This document shows, piece after piece, positions 13,812 to 34,451 of a stretch of DNA of 64,000 bases (position 1 is its first letter; every line of letters starts with the position of its first letter). The stretch is from Actinotignum timonense (GTDB lineage: Bacteria; Actinomycetota; Actinomycetes; Actinomycetales; Actinomycetaceae), in contig NZ_LT706966.1 of the NCBI RefSeq assembly GCF_900155575.1, positions 1,451,425 through 1,515,424 on the forward strand, read 5' to 3'. The position numbers and the translations under genes were made by a program. The notes beneath the pieces were generated by a model that worked only from the letters and a program-made list of their open reading frames with translations, ran no database searches and was not told the DNA's origin.

Positions 13812-13834
13812 TTGTCGTAGGCCTCACGTACCAT
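13812..13834 (+). promoter_or_regulatory. PafBC-type (RecA-independent DNA damage) promoter of the YihY/BrkB gene
   Basis: TTGTCG at 13812-13817, an 11-bp spacer, and TACCAT at 13829-13834. This fits the published mycobacterial consensus TTGTCR-N3-N8-TANNNT in both words and spacing. The -10 lies 6 nt before the GTG at 13841, so the transcript would be leaderless. Over 20 bp it matches the adnA promoter at 27043-27062 at 18 positions. Confidence 0.65.
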
Positions 13835-13840
13835 GGCTAT

Positions 13841-15139
13841 GTGACACAGCAGAACACAGTGATGGATAGGACTTCCCGGGCTTTCGGGGTGGATCAGCGC
13901 GGGCGGCAAGCCGCCCGGCGGGGTGCACCCAGCGGGGCCCGGGTGGCGGAAAGCGGCATGGGCGGCGTCGTACATAAAGGAAAATCCCTGGTTGAATGGG
14001 TGCAAGGCACGCGCATTATGCGGGGGATTGGCCGCTACGGTAAAGCCCGCGGGGGCCTGCTCGCCGGTGGAATCGCCTACTCGGCGCTTTTCGCCATCAC
14101 CGCGGCGCTCACCATTTCCTGGACCGTGTTTATGGCCACCCTCGGCAGGAACGCGCAGCTGCGGGAAACCGTGGTCGATGCCGTCAATGCGGCCCTGCCC
14201 GGCATCCTCCAAGACTCCTCCGGGGAAGGGCTCATCAACCCCGATGACCTCATCCTCTCGGGAACCTCGGTAGTGGCAACCGTCATTGCGGGAGCTGTGC
14301 TGTTGTGGACAGCGATGTCCATTATGGCTGGGCTCGCCACCGCCATCGGAGCCATGTTCGGCGTGAATCAGCGAACCGAAAATGGGGCGGTGAGTATCCT
14401 CTTCCGGCTGGCCGGATTCGTAGTGCTCGCCCTGGGGATCCTCACCTCCGCGATTATCGGCTCTCTCGTCGGCTCGGTAGGAACTCTGCTCCTCACCCAC
14501 CTGGGGCTGGACGGAGCCCTCGTGCAATTCGGAACCAAAATCGCGGTCTTCCTGCTCGCGGCCACCGTCGATGCCCTCGTCATCATGTTCATTATTCGCT
14601 TCACCTCCGGGATTCGGGTACCCCGCCGCGATTTCATTACGGGGGCGGCCCTCGGTGCGCTCCTTCTTTCCATCATTCGAGTGGTCGGTACCTCCGCGGT
14701 ATCCAGCGTGTCCGGGAACCCGCTCCTCGCGCCCTTCGCCGCTATCGCCACCTTGCTGCTCTGGCTCAACCTCGCCTCGCGTATCGTTCTCATGGTCTCC
14801 GCCTATATGGCGAACCCACCGCGGGCCTACGTGGCACAGGACCCGGAAGAACTGCGGGCCACTACCACTCCCAATTACGTCACCCTTTCCGTTCCGGAAA
14901 CACTCACGTGGCCGCATGATCCCATCACGGGTTCCCTGCTGCCCGAACCGGATAACGCCACCGAAGATGAGGAAGAAGAACTGCCCGAATGGGGTGGTTT
15001 GGCCGGGAACCTGGCTCGCCGCCGGGCCGAAAAGCTAGAATCAAAGGCGCGCGAGGCACAGCTCAAAGCTGAGGAAGCTCGCGCACACTACGTGAACGGG
15101 CAACGCGAACTCGCCCGCTCGCAGCGAAAGGACAGCTAG
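13841..15139 (+). CDS. YihY/virulence factor BrkB family membrane protein
   Basis: 432 residues from the GTG at 13841. That start has no Shine-Dalgarno but lies 6 nt after a TACCAT -10, so a leaderless start is likely; ATG 13862 and ATG 13958 are alternatives. GRYGKARGGLLAGGIAYSALFAI opens a six-segment membrane domain that ends near NLASRIVLMVSAYMANPP. A highly charged Glu/Ala/Arg-rich tail of about 100 residues follows, inferred to be cytosolic and helical. Once annotated as RNase BN, this family has no proven enzyme activity. Its PafBC-type promoter suggests damage-induced expression. Confidence 0.85.
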   Translation: MTQQNTVMDRTSRAFGVDQRGRQAARRGAPSGARVAESGMGGVVHKGKSLVEWVQGTRIMRGIGRYGKARGGLLAGGIAYSALFAITAALTISWTVFMATLGRNAQLRETVVDAVNAALPGILQDSSGEGLINPDDLILSGTSVVATVIAGAVLLWTAMSIMAGLATAIGAMFGVNQRTENGAVSILFRLAGFVVLALGILTSAIIGSLVGSVGTLLLTHLGLDGALVQFGTKIAVFLLAATVDALVIMFIIRFTSGIRVPRRDFITGAALGALLLSIIRVVGTSAVSSVSGNPLLAPFAAIATLLLWLNLASRIVLMVSAYMANPPRAYVAQDPEELRATTTPNYVTLSVPETLTWPHDPITGSLLPEPDNATEDEEEELPEWGGLAGNLARRRAEKLESKAREAQLKAEEARAHYVNGQRELARSQRKDS

Positions 15140-26680: not shown

Positions 26681-26905
26681 CTAGAGACCGAAGCCAACCC
26701 GGCGGGTATCCTGTTCGCGGATTTCCACGAAAGCAATAGCATCGGCGGGAATGGTTACCTCACGATTCTTCTTCGCGGTAATACGCAAAGGCTTGCCTTC
26801 TCCACCCAGGCTGGCATCGACAAGCGCGCGCAATTCCTCAACCGAGGCATCCGTTTCCAAAATCAGATCGCGGGTAGTTTCACGAAAACCAATAACGATT
26901 TCCAT
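26681..26905 (-). CDS. DUF3107 family small protein
   Basis: 74 residues from the ATG at 26905, with AAGGAGA just upstream; the frame stays open to 27016 but no upstream start has a ribosome site. MEIVIGFRETTRDLILET and ITIPADAIAFVEI-type strands match DUF3107, a family of small actinobacterial proteins (mycobacterial TB9.4 is one). Function unknown. It is divergent from adnA, and a PafBC-type promoter points at it from 27037, which would give a leader of about 100 nt. Confidence 0.88.
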   Translation of the reverse strand: MEIVIGFRETTRDLILETDASVEELRALVDASLGGEGKPLRITAKKNREVTIPADAIAFVEIREQDTRRVGFGL

Positions 26906-27014
26906 ATCTTTCTCCTTGAATACTCTAGGGATGCGGGGCCGTAAGGCACCGCCGTGAAAGAGCCTGAATAGCTCATCTTCGCTATGCTTCCGCAGTAGCG
27001 TTCGCGATGCCTCC

Positions 27015-27037
27015 ACAGTAGCGGCCCCTTACGACAA
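27015..27037 (-). promoter_or_regulatory. PafBC-type promoter reading toward DUF3107
   Basis: On the minus strand: TTGTCG (27037-27032), TAA plus GGGGCCGC as an 11-bp spacer, then TACTGT (27020-27015). Words and spacing match TTGTCR-N11-TANNNT. Its -35 is the left arm of the 26-bp palindrome at 27028-27053, whose right arm is the -35 of the adnA promoter. Confidence 0.55.
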
Positions 27038-27053
27038 AAAAATTTGTCGTAAG
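27028..27053. promoter_or_regulatory. 26-bp palindrome joining two divergent -35 elements
   Basis: CTTACGACAAA and TTTGTCGTAAG are perfect 11-bp inverted arms around four A. Each arm holds a TTGTCG -35 word, so the palindrome looks like a shared activator site for divergent transcription rather than a terminator, since both flanking genes read away from it. Confidence 0.6.
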
Positions 27054-27066
27054 CCTCTCGTATGGT
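27044..27066 (+). promoter_or_regulatory. PafBC-type (RecA-independent DNA damage) promoter of adnA
   Basis: TTGTCG (27044-27049), an 11-bp spacer, and TATGGT (27061-27066). Same pattern as at 13812. The predicted start near 27073 leaves a short leader with GAAAGGA before the GTG at 27100. Confidence 0.7.
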
Positions 27067-27099: not shown

Positions 27100-30000
27100 G
27101 TGGTGGACAGGATCGTCGAACAACTCGATGCCTCACAAGAGGCAGCGGTCAGCGCGGCTCTGGCACGGTCTGCGGGCGGATTAGCCCCGGGCACCCTGAG
27201 CATTATTGGTGCGCCCGGAAGTGGGAAAACCACCGTCCTCGCCCATATTGCCCGCGCGGCTCTCCATGAAGGAAATATTGCGGTCATCACCCAGGATCGG
27301 CGCGCCGCAGCGCGCCTCCAACACCTGCTCACCTTGGCGGCCGGGGTGCGCCCCGAAAACCTGGAGGTCCGTACCCTTTCTGCCTTCGCCTACGCCATTG
27401 TGCAGCGCTATGCCCAAGCCCTGGGGCGGGAAAAACCCGAATTGATCTCCGGTCCTGATGAGGATCGCATCGTGCGTGAGATTCTCAGTGATGAATACTC
27501 GGGTATCCATTTCCCTGATTTTGTTACCGAGGATGTGCGTGATCTTCCCGGATTACGCCAAGAGCTGCGTAACCTTATTACCCGCGCTCGCGAACTCGGT
27601 CTGGATGCCGGCCAGTTGGAAGCCTGGGCGGAAAACGGGAGCGTGCCCGAACTCCAAGCACAGATGTGGCGCCTGGCCGGCGCGCTTATGCGCCGGTACG
27701 ATGAGGTGCGCACCTTGGGGGATGCGCTGGCAGGTTCGGCCGCTAGCCCGGATCGTCTTGATCACAGCCAGCTCGTCGGTGCGGCTACCCATATGCTCTC
27801 GGATTGGGAAGAACACCTGGCGGCAGCGGGCCGCACGGTCCCGGTACCGCGCCCGCGCTGGGCAATGGTCCTTGTTGATGATGCCCAGAACGCACCGCGG
27901 TCCATGCTTCCCCTCTTGCGGGTAATGCGCGATCAGGGAACCCGGATTATCGTGGCCGGTGATCCCGATAGTGCGGTTCAGGGATTTCGCGGCGGGGTGC
28001 ATTCCCTCCCGGGTGATCTTGCTTATCCCGCTCCGCGCGGCTTGGATGCTGATCTTGTTTACCTCAACGTCCGGCATCGCGGTGGTTCCGTTCTTATTAG
28101 CCAAGCTCAGCGCATCGAGCAGGCCCTCCCGGTGGGCGGGGGTGTGCATGCCCACCGCGCTGCCGGGCCGGCGCTCTCGGAGTATGGCAGCGGTCATACC
28201 AGTGGCAATGGTGACGGCGCCAGGGTGGATGCAGAAGCGGCAAGTTCGCATATATCCGATCAATTGCCCTGCGGGCCAACCGATCCGTGGAATGATGCGT
28301 TGCGCGGGGCCAGCTTCGCCCACATGGAAGAAGAAATCGCCTACGTGGCTTCCTACCTGGAAGAAGTACATCTACGCACCGGTGCCCCCTACGCGCAGAT
28401 GGCGGTATTTACCCGTGCGCGCAGTGAACACGGGCTGATCCGCGATGCACTCGTGCGGCGCGGAATACCGGTAGCGCCCCTGGCTAGTGATGAGCCCCTG
28501 CATCGCGAACCGGCAGTCGCCGCACTCTTTGACCTCATCCGCGCTGCCTTCACCAGCGGCCCGCACGCCTTCGCCACCCCGGAGGGCGTTAATATCCCGG
28601 CATTACTCGCCTCACCCATCATCGGAATGGACCCCCTCGAAATCAAAAGGGTAGGCAGGTGGCTGCGTGCCCAAGCCCTCCTCTCCGGGCAGCGTGGCAG
28701 TGAAGCGGAACTTCTTACCGGAGCAGTCCTAGGGAGCGGTGGGCCTACCGCAGCGGAACTCGAACCCCTGCGCGCTCTACTCGCCCGGATTCGGGAAGCG
28801 GGGGAGGCCTGCGCCATGCAAGCGGAAGAAGTGCTGTGGGCCGCGTGGGAGGGAGCTGGAAAATCCGAAGAATGGCAACAATTAGCCCTCGGGCACGGCC
28901 CGGATGCCGACCGGGCCAACCGGAATCTCGATGCGGTTATTTCCCTCTTCCGGGTGGCGCAACGCATGGCTGATCGTGACCCGGCTGTCACGGTGGATAC
29001 TCTCCTGGAAGAAGTGAGCTCCCAAGAACTCCCCGAAGATTCCATCGCGCGGGGTGGGGCGGAAGCTGATAGCGTTTCCCTCCTTACTCCCGCGGGAGCC
29101 CAAGGGCGCGAATGGGACCATATTGTCCTCATGCACGTGGTGGATGGCGTATGGCCTAATCCGCGCCCGCGTGATGCCCTCACGGGTACCGGACTCCTGA
29201 GTGAACTTGTGACCGGAAGGTTCGCCGGTGGATCCAGTTCGGGCTCCGGGGTCAGTTCGGCTGCCACGGCTGGCGGAGGTGCGGTCTATCGCGATTCCAC
29301 ATCCACGGTCATCGCTGATGAACTACGCCAATTACATTTCGCGGTTACGCGCTCCCGGCGCAGTCTCCTCGTGACCACCACGGACAGCATGGGAGATACC
29401 CCTTCGCGCTTCTTCCCCCTGCTCGGCTTTGATATCTCGGAAAACTCAGCCGGAGCAGGTGCTAGCGCAGGCACGGGTGCAGGAGTAGGAACGGGAGCCG
29501 GTGGGAGCGGTCCCAATCTTCCACGTACCGTGCGCTCGCTCAGCGATCCGCGTTGGGGTATGGCCCTTCCCCTCGGGCGCCGGCCCCTTGTTGCCCAACC
29601 GATCCCACCCGCGCTCCTCAGCAGTGAGGAAACCGTTGGGGTACTGCGCCGGGCACTACGTGCCGGGGGAGAATCCAGCGATTTCGCCCGGGCGGCTCTG
29701 GAGAAAATGCGTGGCGCCGGATTTAGCGCGGCGGATCCGCACACCTGGATGGATGAGCTCGCCACCTCAACCGAAGCAGCGGTACCCGGCCCGGTCTACG
29801 TGAGTCCCTCAGCGGTGGAATCCCTCCTTGCCTGCCCGCTTGACGGATTCTGTTCCGCGGTGGGCCTGCGCTCGGAAGAAGGCACTGAGAGCGCCTCCAT
29901 CGGAACCCTAGTTCACCGCATCGCGGAAGAATTCGCTGAGGAACCCAACCAGGAGCAGATGCACGCCCGCCTGGTAGAACTCTGGCCTGAAAAACTATCC

Positions 30001-30546
30001 GAAACTCCCACCCATTACGACAAACTCCTCTTCGACCAAGCCAGTGACATGGTCGATAACCTCTATATTTACCTTGATTCCCACCGGGATGACACCTTGC
30101 TAGGCGTAGAACACCGGATTAGTCGCGAGCTTCCCGGCACCCCGCCCGTACGGGTATCCGGTTCCATTGACCGCCTCGTCAACCGCGGGGAAGGCGCCCG
30201 GGTCATTGACCTGAAAACCGGAAAATATAAGCCTAGCGAGGCACAGGCTGAGGACCACGCCCAGCTCCAGGTCTACCAGTGGGCACTCAACGAAAAACAC
30301 ACGCCTGCCGGTGCGGAACTCGTGTACGTCCACCCGCACAATTTCCTGAAGAAACAGCACAGCCCCTCCGTTCTCACCCAAGAACCCCTTGATGAGGTGA
30401 GTGCAGCTCGAGCGGAAGATCGCGTGCGCAGCGCCGCCCAGATCGCGGTGAGCGGCTTCGTACCGGTCTCGCCCAGTTTGGAAGAAGCCAATGACCGGGT
30501 TCAATCCATTAGTCCCCTCACGCAAGAAGGACGGATTTTCTCATGA
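27100..30546 (+). CDS. adnA: AdnA subunit of the AdnAB helicase-nuclease
   Basis: 1148 residues from GTG 27100. An N-terminal UvrD-like motor has Walker A GAPGSGKTT (K43); motif II reads LVDDAQN (about residue 260), with Asp where most family motors have Glu. A C-terminal RecB-type nuclease has GTLVHRIAEEF, GSIDRL, VIDLKTGK (about residue 1036) and QLQVYQWAL. AdnAB replaces RecBCD in many actinobacteria: it unwinds and resects double-strand breaks. Gly/Ser/Ala-rich inserts occur at about 710-725 and 782-805. The stop overlaps adnB by ATGA, so the subunits are coupled. The upstream PafBC-type promoter fits damage induction. Confidence 0.92.
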   Translation: MVDRIVEQLDASQEAAVSAALARSAGGLAPGTLSIIGAPGSGKTTVLAHIARAALHEGNIAVITQDRRAAARLQHLLTLAAGVRPENLEVRTLSAFAYAIVQRYAQALGREKPELISGPDEDRIVREILSDEYSGIHFPDFVTEDVRDLPGLRQELRNLITRARELGLDAGQLEAWAENGSVPELQAQMWRLAGALMRRYDEVRTLGDALAGSAASPDRLDHSQLVGAATHMLSDWEEHLAAAGRTVPVPRPRWAMVLVDDAQNAPRSMLPLLRVMRDQGTRIIVAGDPDSAVQGFRGGVHSLPGDLAYPAPRGLDADLVYLNVRHRGGSVLISQAQRIEQALPVGGGVHAHRAAGPALSEYGSGHTSGNGDGARVDAEAASSHISDQLPCGPTDPWNDALRGASFAHMEEEIAYVASYLEEVHLRTGAPYAQMAVFTRARSEHGLIRDALVRRGIPVAPLASDEPLHREPAVAALFDLIRAAFTSGPHAFATPEGVNIPALLASPIIGMDPLEIKRVGRWLRAQALLSGQRGSEAELLTGAVLGSGGPTAAELEPLRALLARIREAGEACAMQAEEVLWAAWEGAGKSEEWQQLALGHGPDADRANRNLDAVISLFRVAQRMADRDPAVTVDTLLEEVSSQELPEDSIARGGAEADSVSLLTPAGAQGREWDHIVLMHVVDGVWPNPRPRDALTGTGLLSELVTGRFAGGSSSGSGVSSAATAGGGAVYRDSTSTVIADELRQLHFAVTRSRRSLLVTTTDSMGDTPSRFFPLLGFDISENSAGAGASAGTGAGVGTGAGGSGPNLPRTVRSLSDPRWGMALPLGRRPLVAQPIPPALLSSEETVGVLRRALRAGGESSDFARAALEKMRGAGFSAADPHTWMDELATSTEAAVPGPVYVSPSAVESLLACPLDGFCSAVGLRSEEGTESASIGTLVHRIAEEFAEEPNQEQMHARLVELWPEKLSETPTHYDKLLFDQASDMVDNLYIYLDSHRDDTLLGVEHRISRELPGTPPVRVSGSIDRLVNRGEGARVIDLKTGKYKPSEAQAEDHAQLQVYQWALNEKHTPAGAELVYVHPHNFLKKQHSPSVLTQEPLDEVSAARAEDRVRSAAQIAVSGFVPVSPSLEEANDRVQSISPLTQEGRIFS

Positions 30547-33500
30547 CACCCACACCCCACGAATACGTTGAAGCACAGACGCCAGCGGAACCCGATGCCG
30601 CTCTAGACCGCATCCTCGCCGGCCAAGAACACCCACCCACCGCGGAACAACGCCGGGTCATCACCTCCACCGCCCCGGCCATACTCGTGGTTGCCGGAGC
30701 CGGATCGGGCAAAACAAAAACCATGGTGGACCGGATCGCTTACCACCTCGCCTGCGGCAACGTGAGCCCGGATGAAGTCCTTGGACTCACCTTCACCCGG
30801 AAAGCCGCCGGAGAACTAGCTGAACGAGTTAACACCAGCTTAGAAAAACTCGGCCTCCTCGCCCCGGAAGGAAGCAACGCGGGGAGCGCCATGCGCCGGC
30901 CCGTCATATCCACCTACAACTCTTTCGCGAACGACATCGCCGGAGCCTACGGCATGCTGGTCGGAGCCGATCCCACCGCCCGCCTCATCACCGATGCCGA
31001 ACGCGTCCAGCTCATGGACCAGGTCGTCAGCGCCCTGCCCAGCAGCGCTAGCACCGCGGTCCTGGCCGAACGCAGCCGCTCCAGCCTCATCAACGACGCC
31101 CTCACCTTCGCTCAAGGAATCCTCACCAACGGCGTGGAGCTAGCAGAAGCCCGCGCTTTCCTCACCGCCCAAGATCACGCCCTGGAAACTCTGTGTGCCG
31201 ACTCAACACGCATCATGAGCGCGCGCTGCTGGTACCCGGATGCCTCCAAGAAATTCACCAATTTGAAAGGGGGAGCGGCAGTACCCAAACAACAACAGGT
31301 CGTACTTGGGCTAGTGGAGTCCTACCTGCAGCTCAAAAAAGAACTCAACGTCACCGAATTCGCCGACCAAGTCGCTATCGCCGGGCGCATCATGACCCGC
31401 TATCCCCAAATCGCCAAGGAAATTTCCTCCCGGTATCGCCTCATCCTGCTCGACGAATACCAAGACACCGACGAAAACCAAGCACAATTCCTCCTGGGCG
31501 CCCTCACCGCGAAACGAGACGGCTTCCTATCCATCACCGCGGTAGGCGATCCGAACCAGGCCATCTACGGGTGGCGAGGCGCCAGCGCCGCCGCCCTGAC
31601 CAACTTCGCACGTCACACCACCCGCATTTTCGGGCACGTAGAGAAACTCCAGCTCTCCACCGCTTTCCGTAATGATCGAGCCGTGCTCGCCGCAGGCAAC
31701 GCCGTCGCCACTCCCTTAGAACGCGACACGTTCCTACGCGAAGATCGTGACCACCCGAATTTCCCACCCGAATTCAGGCCCGCCCCAACAAGCGCGGGAA
31801 CCGCGGGGAGCGCGGGGGAAAGTACCGATATCGCGCCACTGCGGCTGCGTGAACGCCCCGGAGCGGGAGCCGGGCGCGTCAGCGAAATCCGTACCCTCCT
31901 TCGCGAAGACTCCTACCGGAGTATCGCCCGGCATATCCTCGCGGTACGCGAGCGGGTGGCCGCGGAAAACGAAGAGCGGCGCGCTCGCGGTGAAGCACCG
32001 CGCGGGGCCGAGATCGCCGTCCTGTGCCGCAAACGCTCCTATATCGATATGATGGCCGCCGCACTGCGCGAACTCAACAGCCAGCTCGCCAGGGAATCTG
32101 CCGCTCACCCTGGCGGTGCCACGCCTCAGCCCCTCGCCTTTGAGATCGTGGGCGGGGAATCGCTGGTGGCGCGCCCGGAAATCATTACCCTGCGGGCCGC
32201 CCTCGGCCTGGCCGCCAACCCGGCCCGCGGCGACCTCCTCGCGCGCTTACTCGCCCACTGGAATATTGGGGTGGCGGATATCCGCGCGCTCTCACGCTGG
32301 GCGCGTCGCTACGCGGCCGCGGCTGTCACCAAAGTCGATAGCGACGTGCGTGCCAGTTTTATTAACGACGACGCCGCACCCGGCCACGAGGGCGCGTCTG
32401 GCGCCGCGGGTGAATTGGCTACCGCGCAACCCCTTCTCAACAGTCGTGACGAAGCCAATCTGGGCGAGGCGCTCCACGCGCTTATGCTCCTGGTGAGCAC
32501 CCCAAGCACCCCTGGCATGTATGAGGATGGGGATGGACATCTCGATGCGCATGCGGATGGCAACTCGGGTGAACACGGGGGCGAGTGCCCAGGTGAGCGC
32601 GCGGATGCGGCGGAGCTGGCGGGAACGGGCGAAGCTGAGCTCAGGCAAGCAGCCCGATCCGCACGCGGCGAATTCTCCAGCATTGGCTGGGAACGCCTGC
32701 GGCGCTTGAATGCCACCCTCGCGTCCTTGCGTTCCGGTTTGCATAACGCTTTGGCCGATCAGATTGATCGGGCCGTTCACCTGCTCGGCCTGGATACCGC
32801 GGCTGCTACCCGCAGTGAAGGCGGGCAGCGAGTCCGTACCTCCATCGACCAATTCATCTCCCTGGCCCGCACCTATGCGCACGGTGATAGCCAGCGGGGC
32901 ATGCGCGAATTCGTGGAATGGCTCGATGTGGTGGAAACAGAAGAACACGGCGGGGAAGAAGAATCCGGGGCAGATATTCCGCGGGTAGAGAGCGCGGTCG
33001 ATGTTACCCCCGGGGTTATCCAATTGATGACCGTTCATGCTGCCAAAGGTTTGGAATGGCGTGACCTCGTCGTCGTACCTGAACTCGTGAAAGGCCAGTT
33101 CTCCGAAGTGACCGAAGGAGTGAAAGCCTGGCCGCGCAATACCGGTATTTTCCCGTACCCCCTGCGGACCGACTATCCGTACCTACCCCAATTCACACTG
33201 GCCGGAGCGCGCAATCTCGATAAAATCACCGTCGCGAATACTTACGCGCGGTTCCTTGACGAATTGGCGTACCACGAAAGTGAAGAAATGCGGCGCCTCG
33301 CCTACGTGGCCTTTACCCGATCCACTCGGGAGCTCCTGCTAGCCGGATACTGTTTCCAAGATGATAAAGATGTGTCCGGCCGGGTACAGAAAGCAGAAAA
33401 GCAAGCAAAGAAAAACGCCGCCGAAACCCCGGAAGATGGGGGCGATAACGCGCTGGGCGTTGAAACACGGCCGCCCTCCTGCTTCCTGAGCGCGGTGCGA

Positions 33501-34451
33501 GAAGCTGCCGCCCGCGGGGAGCTCACGCTGGCTGCCTCGCCCGCCACGGTTTCCTCCGTGAAGCTGCCGGAAGGATTCCCGGATATTGCACCGGACAGCT
33601 TGAGCGTGGATGAGCTCGTCGACATTTTCGGCGAAAAAGTTGTGTACCCGCCGGTCCTCGAACCGGTACCGCATTATTTCGAGGCGCCCGATCTGCTTGC
33701 CTGGCCGCGTGACCTGGCCCGCAGCCTCCCTATCGAGGCGGAAACTCTCGATGCTGACCAGCGCGCCGAACTCACCCAGGTCATCGGCCGGCTTATTGCA
33801 CGCAAACAGCAAGCCGAAACGTCCGAGTACACCGAGGCCGGCGGGCATTACACCGCCACCGAGCTCGTCTACCGGGCTGAACACCGCGAAGAATACCTGC
33901 TCAATAAACGCCGCCCGGTTCCCCGCCAGCCCTCGCGAGCTGCGCGTTTGGGAACGATCCTGCACGAAAAAATCGCTGATAGTTACGCGAGCGCCGCCGT
34001 GCTCAATATTGATAGCGAGGATCCGCTCGATCATGATCCCGTTCTCAGCGCAGAAGAAATTGCGCGTATGTATGAGAATTACGAAGCGTCCGAATGGGCT
34101 AGCTACCCGCCGCTCGCCATCGAGCAGCAACTCGGCGTGGTCATCGGGGGGCATGTTGTCCACTGCGCACTCGACGCTGTTTTCGACACCTCACAGGTAC
34201 CCGGGCGTGCCCCGGTGACTATCGTGGACTGGAAATCCGGGCGGCGCCCCTACGGGGAAACGAAGGCTGCCCGGGAACTCCAGCTCGCCCTCTACCGGCT
34301 TGCCTGGTCCCGGGCCCACAGCATCCCCCTCGCGGAAATTGATGCGTCCTTCGTCTACCTGCGGGGAAATAGGGCTGAAGAACTACGGGCTGGGAAGCTC
34401 AGCGAGGAGGAAATTCTGCTTCGTGCGGGTCTGCCCAATCAGGAGCAGTAA
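30543..34451 (+). CDS. adnB: AdnB subunit of the AdnAB helicase-nuclease
   Basis: 1302 residues. Full UvrD-type motor: VVAGAGSGKTKTM (K57), LTFTRKAAGEL, LLDEYQDTDENQ (about residue 302), VGDPNQAIYGWRG, MTVHAAKGLEW and YVAFTRS. The C-terminal nuclease has LGTILHEKIADSY, LDAVFD, IVDWKSGR (about 1226) and LQLALYRLAW. Unlike AdnA, the DExx box is canonical, so this should be the stronger motor. A low-complexity His/Asp/Gly/Glu-rich insert (about 658-700) is unusual. The last 53 bp overlap the end of the opposite-strand gene at 34399. Confidence 0.93.
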   Translation: MTPTPHEYVEAQTPAEPDAALDRILAGQEHPPTAEQRRVITSTAPAILVVAGAGSGKTKTMVDRIAYHLACGNVSPDEVLGLTFTRKAAGELAERVNTSLEKLGLLAPEGSNAGSAMRRPVISTYNSFANDIAGAYGMLVGADPTARLITDAERVQLMDQVVSALPSSASTAVLAERSRSSLINDALTFAQGILTNGVELAEARAFLTAQDHALETLCADSTRIMSARCWYPDASKKFTNLKGGAAVPKQQQVVLGLVESYLQLKKELNVTEFADQVAIAGRIMTRYPQIAKEISSRYRLILLDEYQDTDENQAQFLLGALTAKRDGFLSITAVGDPNQAIYGWRGASAAALTNFARHTTRIFGHVEKLQLSTAFRNDRAVLAAGNAVATPLERDTFLREDRDHPNFPPEFRPAPTSAGTAGSAGESTDIAPLRLRERPGAGAGRVSEIRTLLREDSYRSIARHILAVRERVAAENEERRARGEAPRGAEIAVLCRKRSYIDMMAAALRELNSQLARESAAHPGGATPQPLAFEIVGGESLVARPEIITLRAALGLAANPARGDLLARLLAHWNIGVADIRALSRWARRYAAAAVTKVDSDVRASFINDDAAPGHEGASGAAGELATAQPLLNSRDEANLGEALHALMLLVSTPSTPGMYEDGDGHLDAHADGNSGEHGGECPGERADAAELAGTGEAELRQAARSARGEFSSIGWERLRRLNATLASLRSGLHNALADQIDRAVHLLGLDTAAATRSEGGQRVRTSIDQFISLARTYAHGDSQRGMREFVEWLDVVETEEHGGEEESGADIPRVESAVDVTPGVIQLMTVHAAKGLEWRDLVVVPELVKGQFSEVTEGVKAWPRNTGIFPYPLRTDYPYLPQFTLAGARNLDKITVANTYARFLDELAYHESEEMRRLAYVAFTRSTRELLLAGYCFQDDKDVSGRVQKAEKQAKKNAAETPEDGGDNALGVETRPPSCFLSAVREAAARGELTLAASPATVSSVKLPEGFPDIAPDSLSVDELVDIFGEKVVYPPVLEPVPHYFEAPDLLAWPRDLARSLPIEAETLDADQRAELTQVIGRLIARKQQAETSEYTEAGGHYTATELVYRAEHREEYLLNKRRPVPRQPSRAARLGTILHEKIADSYASAAVLNIDSEDPLDHDPVLSAEEIARMYENYEASEWASYPPLAIEQQLGVVIGGHVVHCALDAVFDTSQVPGRAPVTIVDWKSGRRPYGETKAARELQLALYRLAWSRAHSIPLAEIDASFVYLRGNRAEELRAGKLSEEEILLRAGLPNQEQ

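Follow-up and report, generated by a model that had tools for sequence, protein, structure and literature searches.

The closest described counterparts of this locus are the PafBC-dependent RecA-NDp/P1 promoters of mycobacteria, which consist of TTGTCR, 11 nt and TANNNT and drive recA, adnAB and other repair genes. Their published consensus is tTGTCRgtg-N8-TAnnnT, in which gtg is written in lower case and so is not strictly required (PMC5656591), and adnAB is a known member of the mycobacterial PafBC regulon (PMC8223512, PMC8151990). The mechanistic basis of activation by PafBC, a heterodimeric WYL activator of known structure (PDB 6sj9, 7p5x, 9fnd), has also been described (PMC11804915, PMC6789036). 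The PafBC damage regulon has been studied almost only in mycobacteria; the present analysis adds a further actinobacterial family, for which a readable list of sites is given.

The predicted promoter pair between adnAB and DUF3107

In Actinotignum timonense (genome 2.30 Mb), the motif TTGTCGTAA-N8-TANNNT is found on both strands at 27015-27066 of the window, i.e., the whole stretch of 64,000 nucleotides that was analysed (61% G+C), and its two copies point away from each other. The plus-strand copy at 27044-27066 is TTGTCGTAAGCCTCTCGTATGGT, directed toward adnAB, with the -26 element TTGTCGTAA at 27044-27052 and the -10 TATGGT at 27061-27066; the minus-strand copy at 27037-27015 is TTGTCGTAAGGGGCCGCTACTGT, directed toward the DUF3107 gene, with the same -26 element at 27037-27029 and the -10 TACTGT at 27020-27015. 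The opposed TTGTCG-N11-TATGGT and TTGTCG-N11-TACTGT words described in the first-pass annotation are thus borne out, and the core TTGTCR-N11-TANNNT is present on both strands as in the mycobacterial promoters. However, the mycobacterial gtg after TTGTCR is replaced by TAA/TAG in A. timonense and by GAG in related genera, that is to say, the form is TGTCGTAR-N8-TANNNT here and TGTCGGAG in sister genera. A second difference is that the two promoters of A. timonense overlap back to back: the two TTGTCG words are 6 bp apart, and the -26 elements together build an inverted repeat at 27028-27053 with arms CTTACGACAAA/TTTGTCGTAAG (11/11 inverted) and a 4-bp AAAA centre. The same 26 bp had been called a perfect palindrome, which holds for the 11-bp arms and slightly overstates the whole, because the centre, which also differs among species, is non-palindromic and the 26-mer agrees with its own reverse complement at 22/26 positions.

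The probable reading of this arrangement is that two divergent, overlapping PafBC-dependent sigma-A promoters lie between adnAB and DUF3107. After DNA damage, ssDNA-activated PafBC would join RNA polymerase-sigmaA, and the complex would engage the -26 element and the -10 of only one orientation at any moment. Of the two promoters, the right-hand one would drive the adnAB repair operon and form the conserved, ancestral part, and the left-hand, genus-specific one would add damage control to the DUF3107 gene. Transcription starts are predicted at ~27073 on the adnAB side and ~27008 on the DUF3107 side, so that each -35 region would overlap the -26 element of the other promoter, which suggests mutual exclusion; with the -26 elements 6 bp apart, the initiation complexes should compete, and no common bound activator would be involved.

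Genome-wide sites and the PafBC genes

By itself, TTGTCRN11TANNNT proves nothing in this genome, since it gives 14 matches and the backward control gives 13. TGTCGTAR, not TTGTCR, forms the true core: TAR is conserved after TGTCG, and the initial T can be dispensed with. When spacers of 2-18 (17 in all) were allowed genome-wide between TGTCGTAR and TANNNT, 27 of the 37 matches had exactly N8 (binomial P ~1e-25), i.e., the spacing to the -10 is rigid across the regulon. If K is permitted at the sixth base, there are 32 sites genome-wide, and random placement of these would give about 0.007 divergent pairs as close as that at 27015-27066. In the window, the refined motif has three matches, all exact and two of them being the promoter pair, where 0.39 would be expected if one mismatch is permitted. 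Among the 27 TGTCGTAR sites, at least 15 stand 6-7 nt ahead of a start codon, as do 2/5 TGTCGGAG sites, so that leaderless mRNAs are predicted.

The gene context, read from the genome stretches around the motif matches, is that of a DNA-repair regulon: recA, sbcD, priA, radA, dnaX, thyA, a RecB-like nuclease, adnAB and two exonucleases, one DnaQ-like (DnaQ-type) and one DEDDh/UvrC-like, stand downstream of the motif. Other genes in this position include leuS, argS, a pepO-like gene and genes for a mechanosensitive channel and a BrkB-like protein; among them, leuS, argS and the pepO-like gene have no repair role, which counts against the model. One match (L011), probably due to chance, falls within the coding sequence of a DivIVA-like protein.

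Several individual loci were also observed. The further regulon site in the window, at 13812-13834 on the plus strand, predicts a leaderless start for a BrkB/YihY-family membrane protein (13841-15136, plus), a protein that one would not expect in a repair regulon. A second divergent PafBC-type pair (L210; G000:C1:990132 minus, 990377 plus; ~245 bp apart) faces dnaX on one side and an acyl-CoA-dehydrogenase-like gene on the other and is also present in G002, G003 and G004. At L014:2857-3159 (minus), a regulon-type site precedes a RelB-type antitoxin gene by ~70 nt. Locus L020 holds genes that, by their sequence, appear to resemble mevalonate-pathway kinases, which are unusual in Actinomycetota.

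The regulator presupposed by the first-pass annotation is encoded in the genome. The pafB and pafC genes are both present and, as in the PafBC systems of known structure, adjacent (L010); the gene after them is putatively a helY-like helicase, judging from position and sequence. The PafB family profile matches the solved proteins at 1e-44 and 6e-37 and the PafC profile at 6e-14 (A. aurescens 6sj9; M. smegmatis 7p5x, 9fnd), and the wHTH-WYL-WCX architecture is seen in the family profiles. These matches came with the family profiles, and the single A. timonense PafB and PafC sequences gave no phmmer match in PDB. HTH_PafC was detected in 5/11 family members. Across 41 family genomes, motif counts are high in most of those with a strong PafB and 0-3 where PafB is absent, and the count tracks the presence of a strong PafB (Mann-Whitney P 6e-4, computed without the genus of A. 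timonense). The motif is not universal, however: zero matches were obtained in two genomes despite a strong PafB. The PafBC-dependent promoter class at 27015-27066, which had been proposed from the letters of the pair, is well supported by the core motif, the rigid N8, the repair regulon and the pafBC genes.

The two sides of the pair and the competing readings

On the right, adnA (27100-30546, plus) encodes a UvrD-like helicase with a PD-(D/E)XK nuclease (Pfam; PDB 6ppj/7sjr chain A, E 3e-60) and adnB follows at 30543-34451, plus (Pfam; PDB 6ppu/6ppr chain B, E 1e-83). This two-gene operon matches the AdnA/AdnB helicase-nuclease structures of M. smegmatis, and differs in its divergent orientation relative to DUF3107, which many genomes of the family share. 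The start of adnA is GTG 27100, behind AGAAAGGA. Its promoter is invariant in five species of the genus, and an adnA-direction promoter occurs in several other genera as TGTCGGAG, TGTCGGAC or TGTCGGTC + N8-TANNNT (L047, L057, L063, L069, L106, L108, L109, L111-L115), where the GGAG form of the motif stands upstream of adnA. The adnAB side is an expected member of the genome-wide repair regulon and agrees with the known PafBC regulon; the claimed membership of adnAB is upheld both by this cross-genus conservation and by the mycobacterial precedent (PMC8223512, PMC8151990).

On the left, the DUF3107 protein of 74 aa (26681-26905, minus; PF11305, E 1.3e-20) starts at ATG 26905 behind AAGGAG, ~100 nt from the predicted transcription start. 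The predicted 5′ leader (26906-27008, minus) is poorly conserved in the alignment of five species, with 19 substituted and 26 gapped of 97 columns. In all five, the -26 element and the TANNNT word are kept on either strand, and the changes fall in the centre, in one spacer base and in one N of the DUF3107 -10 (TACTGT/TACGGT). Compared with the leader, the DUF3107-side 23-mer shows 2/23 against 19/71 changes when only substitutions are counted (P 0.09, not significant) and P 0.0007 when indels are counted, in five closely related species that give limited independent evidence for conservation. Since the species do not share the same leader indels, an N-terminally extended DUF3107 from GTG 27016 was rejected. 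In G000, G002 and G004, the leader (window 26950-27020) holds a -10 region duplicated in tandem (CGCTACTG.GGAGGCATCGCGAA-like), a copy that is absent from G001 and G003.

The DUF3107-direction site is found in five species of the genus, A. timonense included, and in one other candidate, L063 (TGTCGGACCGCCCGGTTAGGAT); the distant sixth species (G005) has no DUF3107-side motif, and the promoter is absent from most other genera and family genomes examined. A mycobacterial DUF3107 probe sequence retrieved genuine homologues (47-86% identity) at 80 loci of Mycobacterium and its relatives, Corynebacterium, Kribbella and Propionibacteriales, and 0/80 have a PafBC motif within 300 nt upstream, with 0.6 expected by chance. 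Conservation upstream of adnA and DUF3107 is split, across genera on the first side and in five close species plus L063 on the second. DUF3107 had been suggested as a candidate damage-response protein; the motif conserved in close species makes it a candidate regulon member at the level of the genus and not actinobacteria-wide, a distribution that weakens the claim and points to a lineage-specific regulon candidate, not to a general DNA-damage protein. Acquisition of the DUF3107-side promoter as a local event is plausible but unproven. Damage control of this kind would be confined locally and could not be taken to indicate what this widespread small protein does in general.

Conservation of another kind was noted between adnA and DUF3107 in other genera. 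The box TTTCGGCC-NNN-GATGAA is conserved upstream of DUF3107 (L106, L108, L109, L111 and others; ~1 copy/genome) and was not found in the genus of A. timonense, where the second PafBC arm occupies its place. The box TTYGGCYNNNRATGAA, likewise located between adnA and DUF3107 and missing from the genus of A. timonense, was rejected as a regulon element, because a family-wide search gave at most ~1 copy/genome in most.

A possible but rather unlikely alternative is that the adnA promoter alone is functional, the inverted arm being a palindromic accessory that helps PafBC/polymerase at adnA and the minus-strand TANNNT being incidental. It would fit the position of DUF3107 outside the regulon elsewhere, the ~100-nt leader among sites that mostly give leaderless or short-leader mRNAs, and genus G041, which has inverted TCCGACA/TGTCGGA arms with just one -10 (inverted CCGACA/TGTCGG pairs were also sought elsewhere, with mostly noise as the result). 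However, the minus-strand -10 retains TANNNT in 5/5 species despite the change of an unspecified base, nearly all other regulon sites are single-armed, and a consensus sigma-70 promoter for DUF3107 was not found. The first-pass view, in which one site bound by the activator drives the two sides together, is improbable: the arms do abut symmetrically, but PafBC binds promoter dsDNA only together with RNA polymerase, the -26 element read by PafB is directional (PMC11804915), and elements 6 bp apart leave no space for two polymerases. Control by another regulator, such as ClgR or LexA, is similarly hard to credit. According to a report cited in PMC5656591, ClgR recognises the P1 consensus in M. 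smegmatis, but the rigid spacing to the -10 fits sigma adaptation, the motif count follows PafB, and a close SOS box sought near the pair was not found. A chance match, which has only the degeneracy of TANNNT in its favour, is practically negligible given the N8 bias, the five-species conservation and the low expected counts for window matches and close pairs; for the adnA side, the conservation across genera refutes it.

Drift of the recognition word

The PafBC recognition word is seen drifting between genera. It is TGTCGGAG (TGTCG-G-AG) in the sister genera and mostly TGTCGTAG (TGTCG-T-AG) in the genus of A. timonense, and G and T interchange at orthologous sites between species of the genus, for example, at radA, leuS and thyA. 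In M. smegmatis, joint replacement of PafB Arg46 and Arg50 by alanine gives the pafBC-deletion phenotype (PMC6789036). Both recognition-helix arginines are kept in A. timonense PafB, whereas residue 49 between them is Gln in the five close species and Glu in all other PafB aligned, including M. smegmatis, A. aurescens and the sister genera. The PafB of G005 has Ser at 46, and one motif match occurs in G005. It is tentatively suggested that the genus-wide -26 shift from TGTCGGAG to TGTCGTAG may have gone with Glu49-to-Gln (a Glu:C to Gln:A type swap), together with an either/or promoter pair that pulls DUF3107 into the damage response; the link between residue 49 and the motif is hypothetical, drawn from one clade and one exception, and singles out this one residue for testing.
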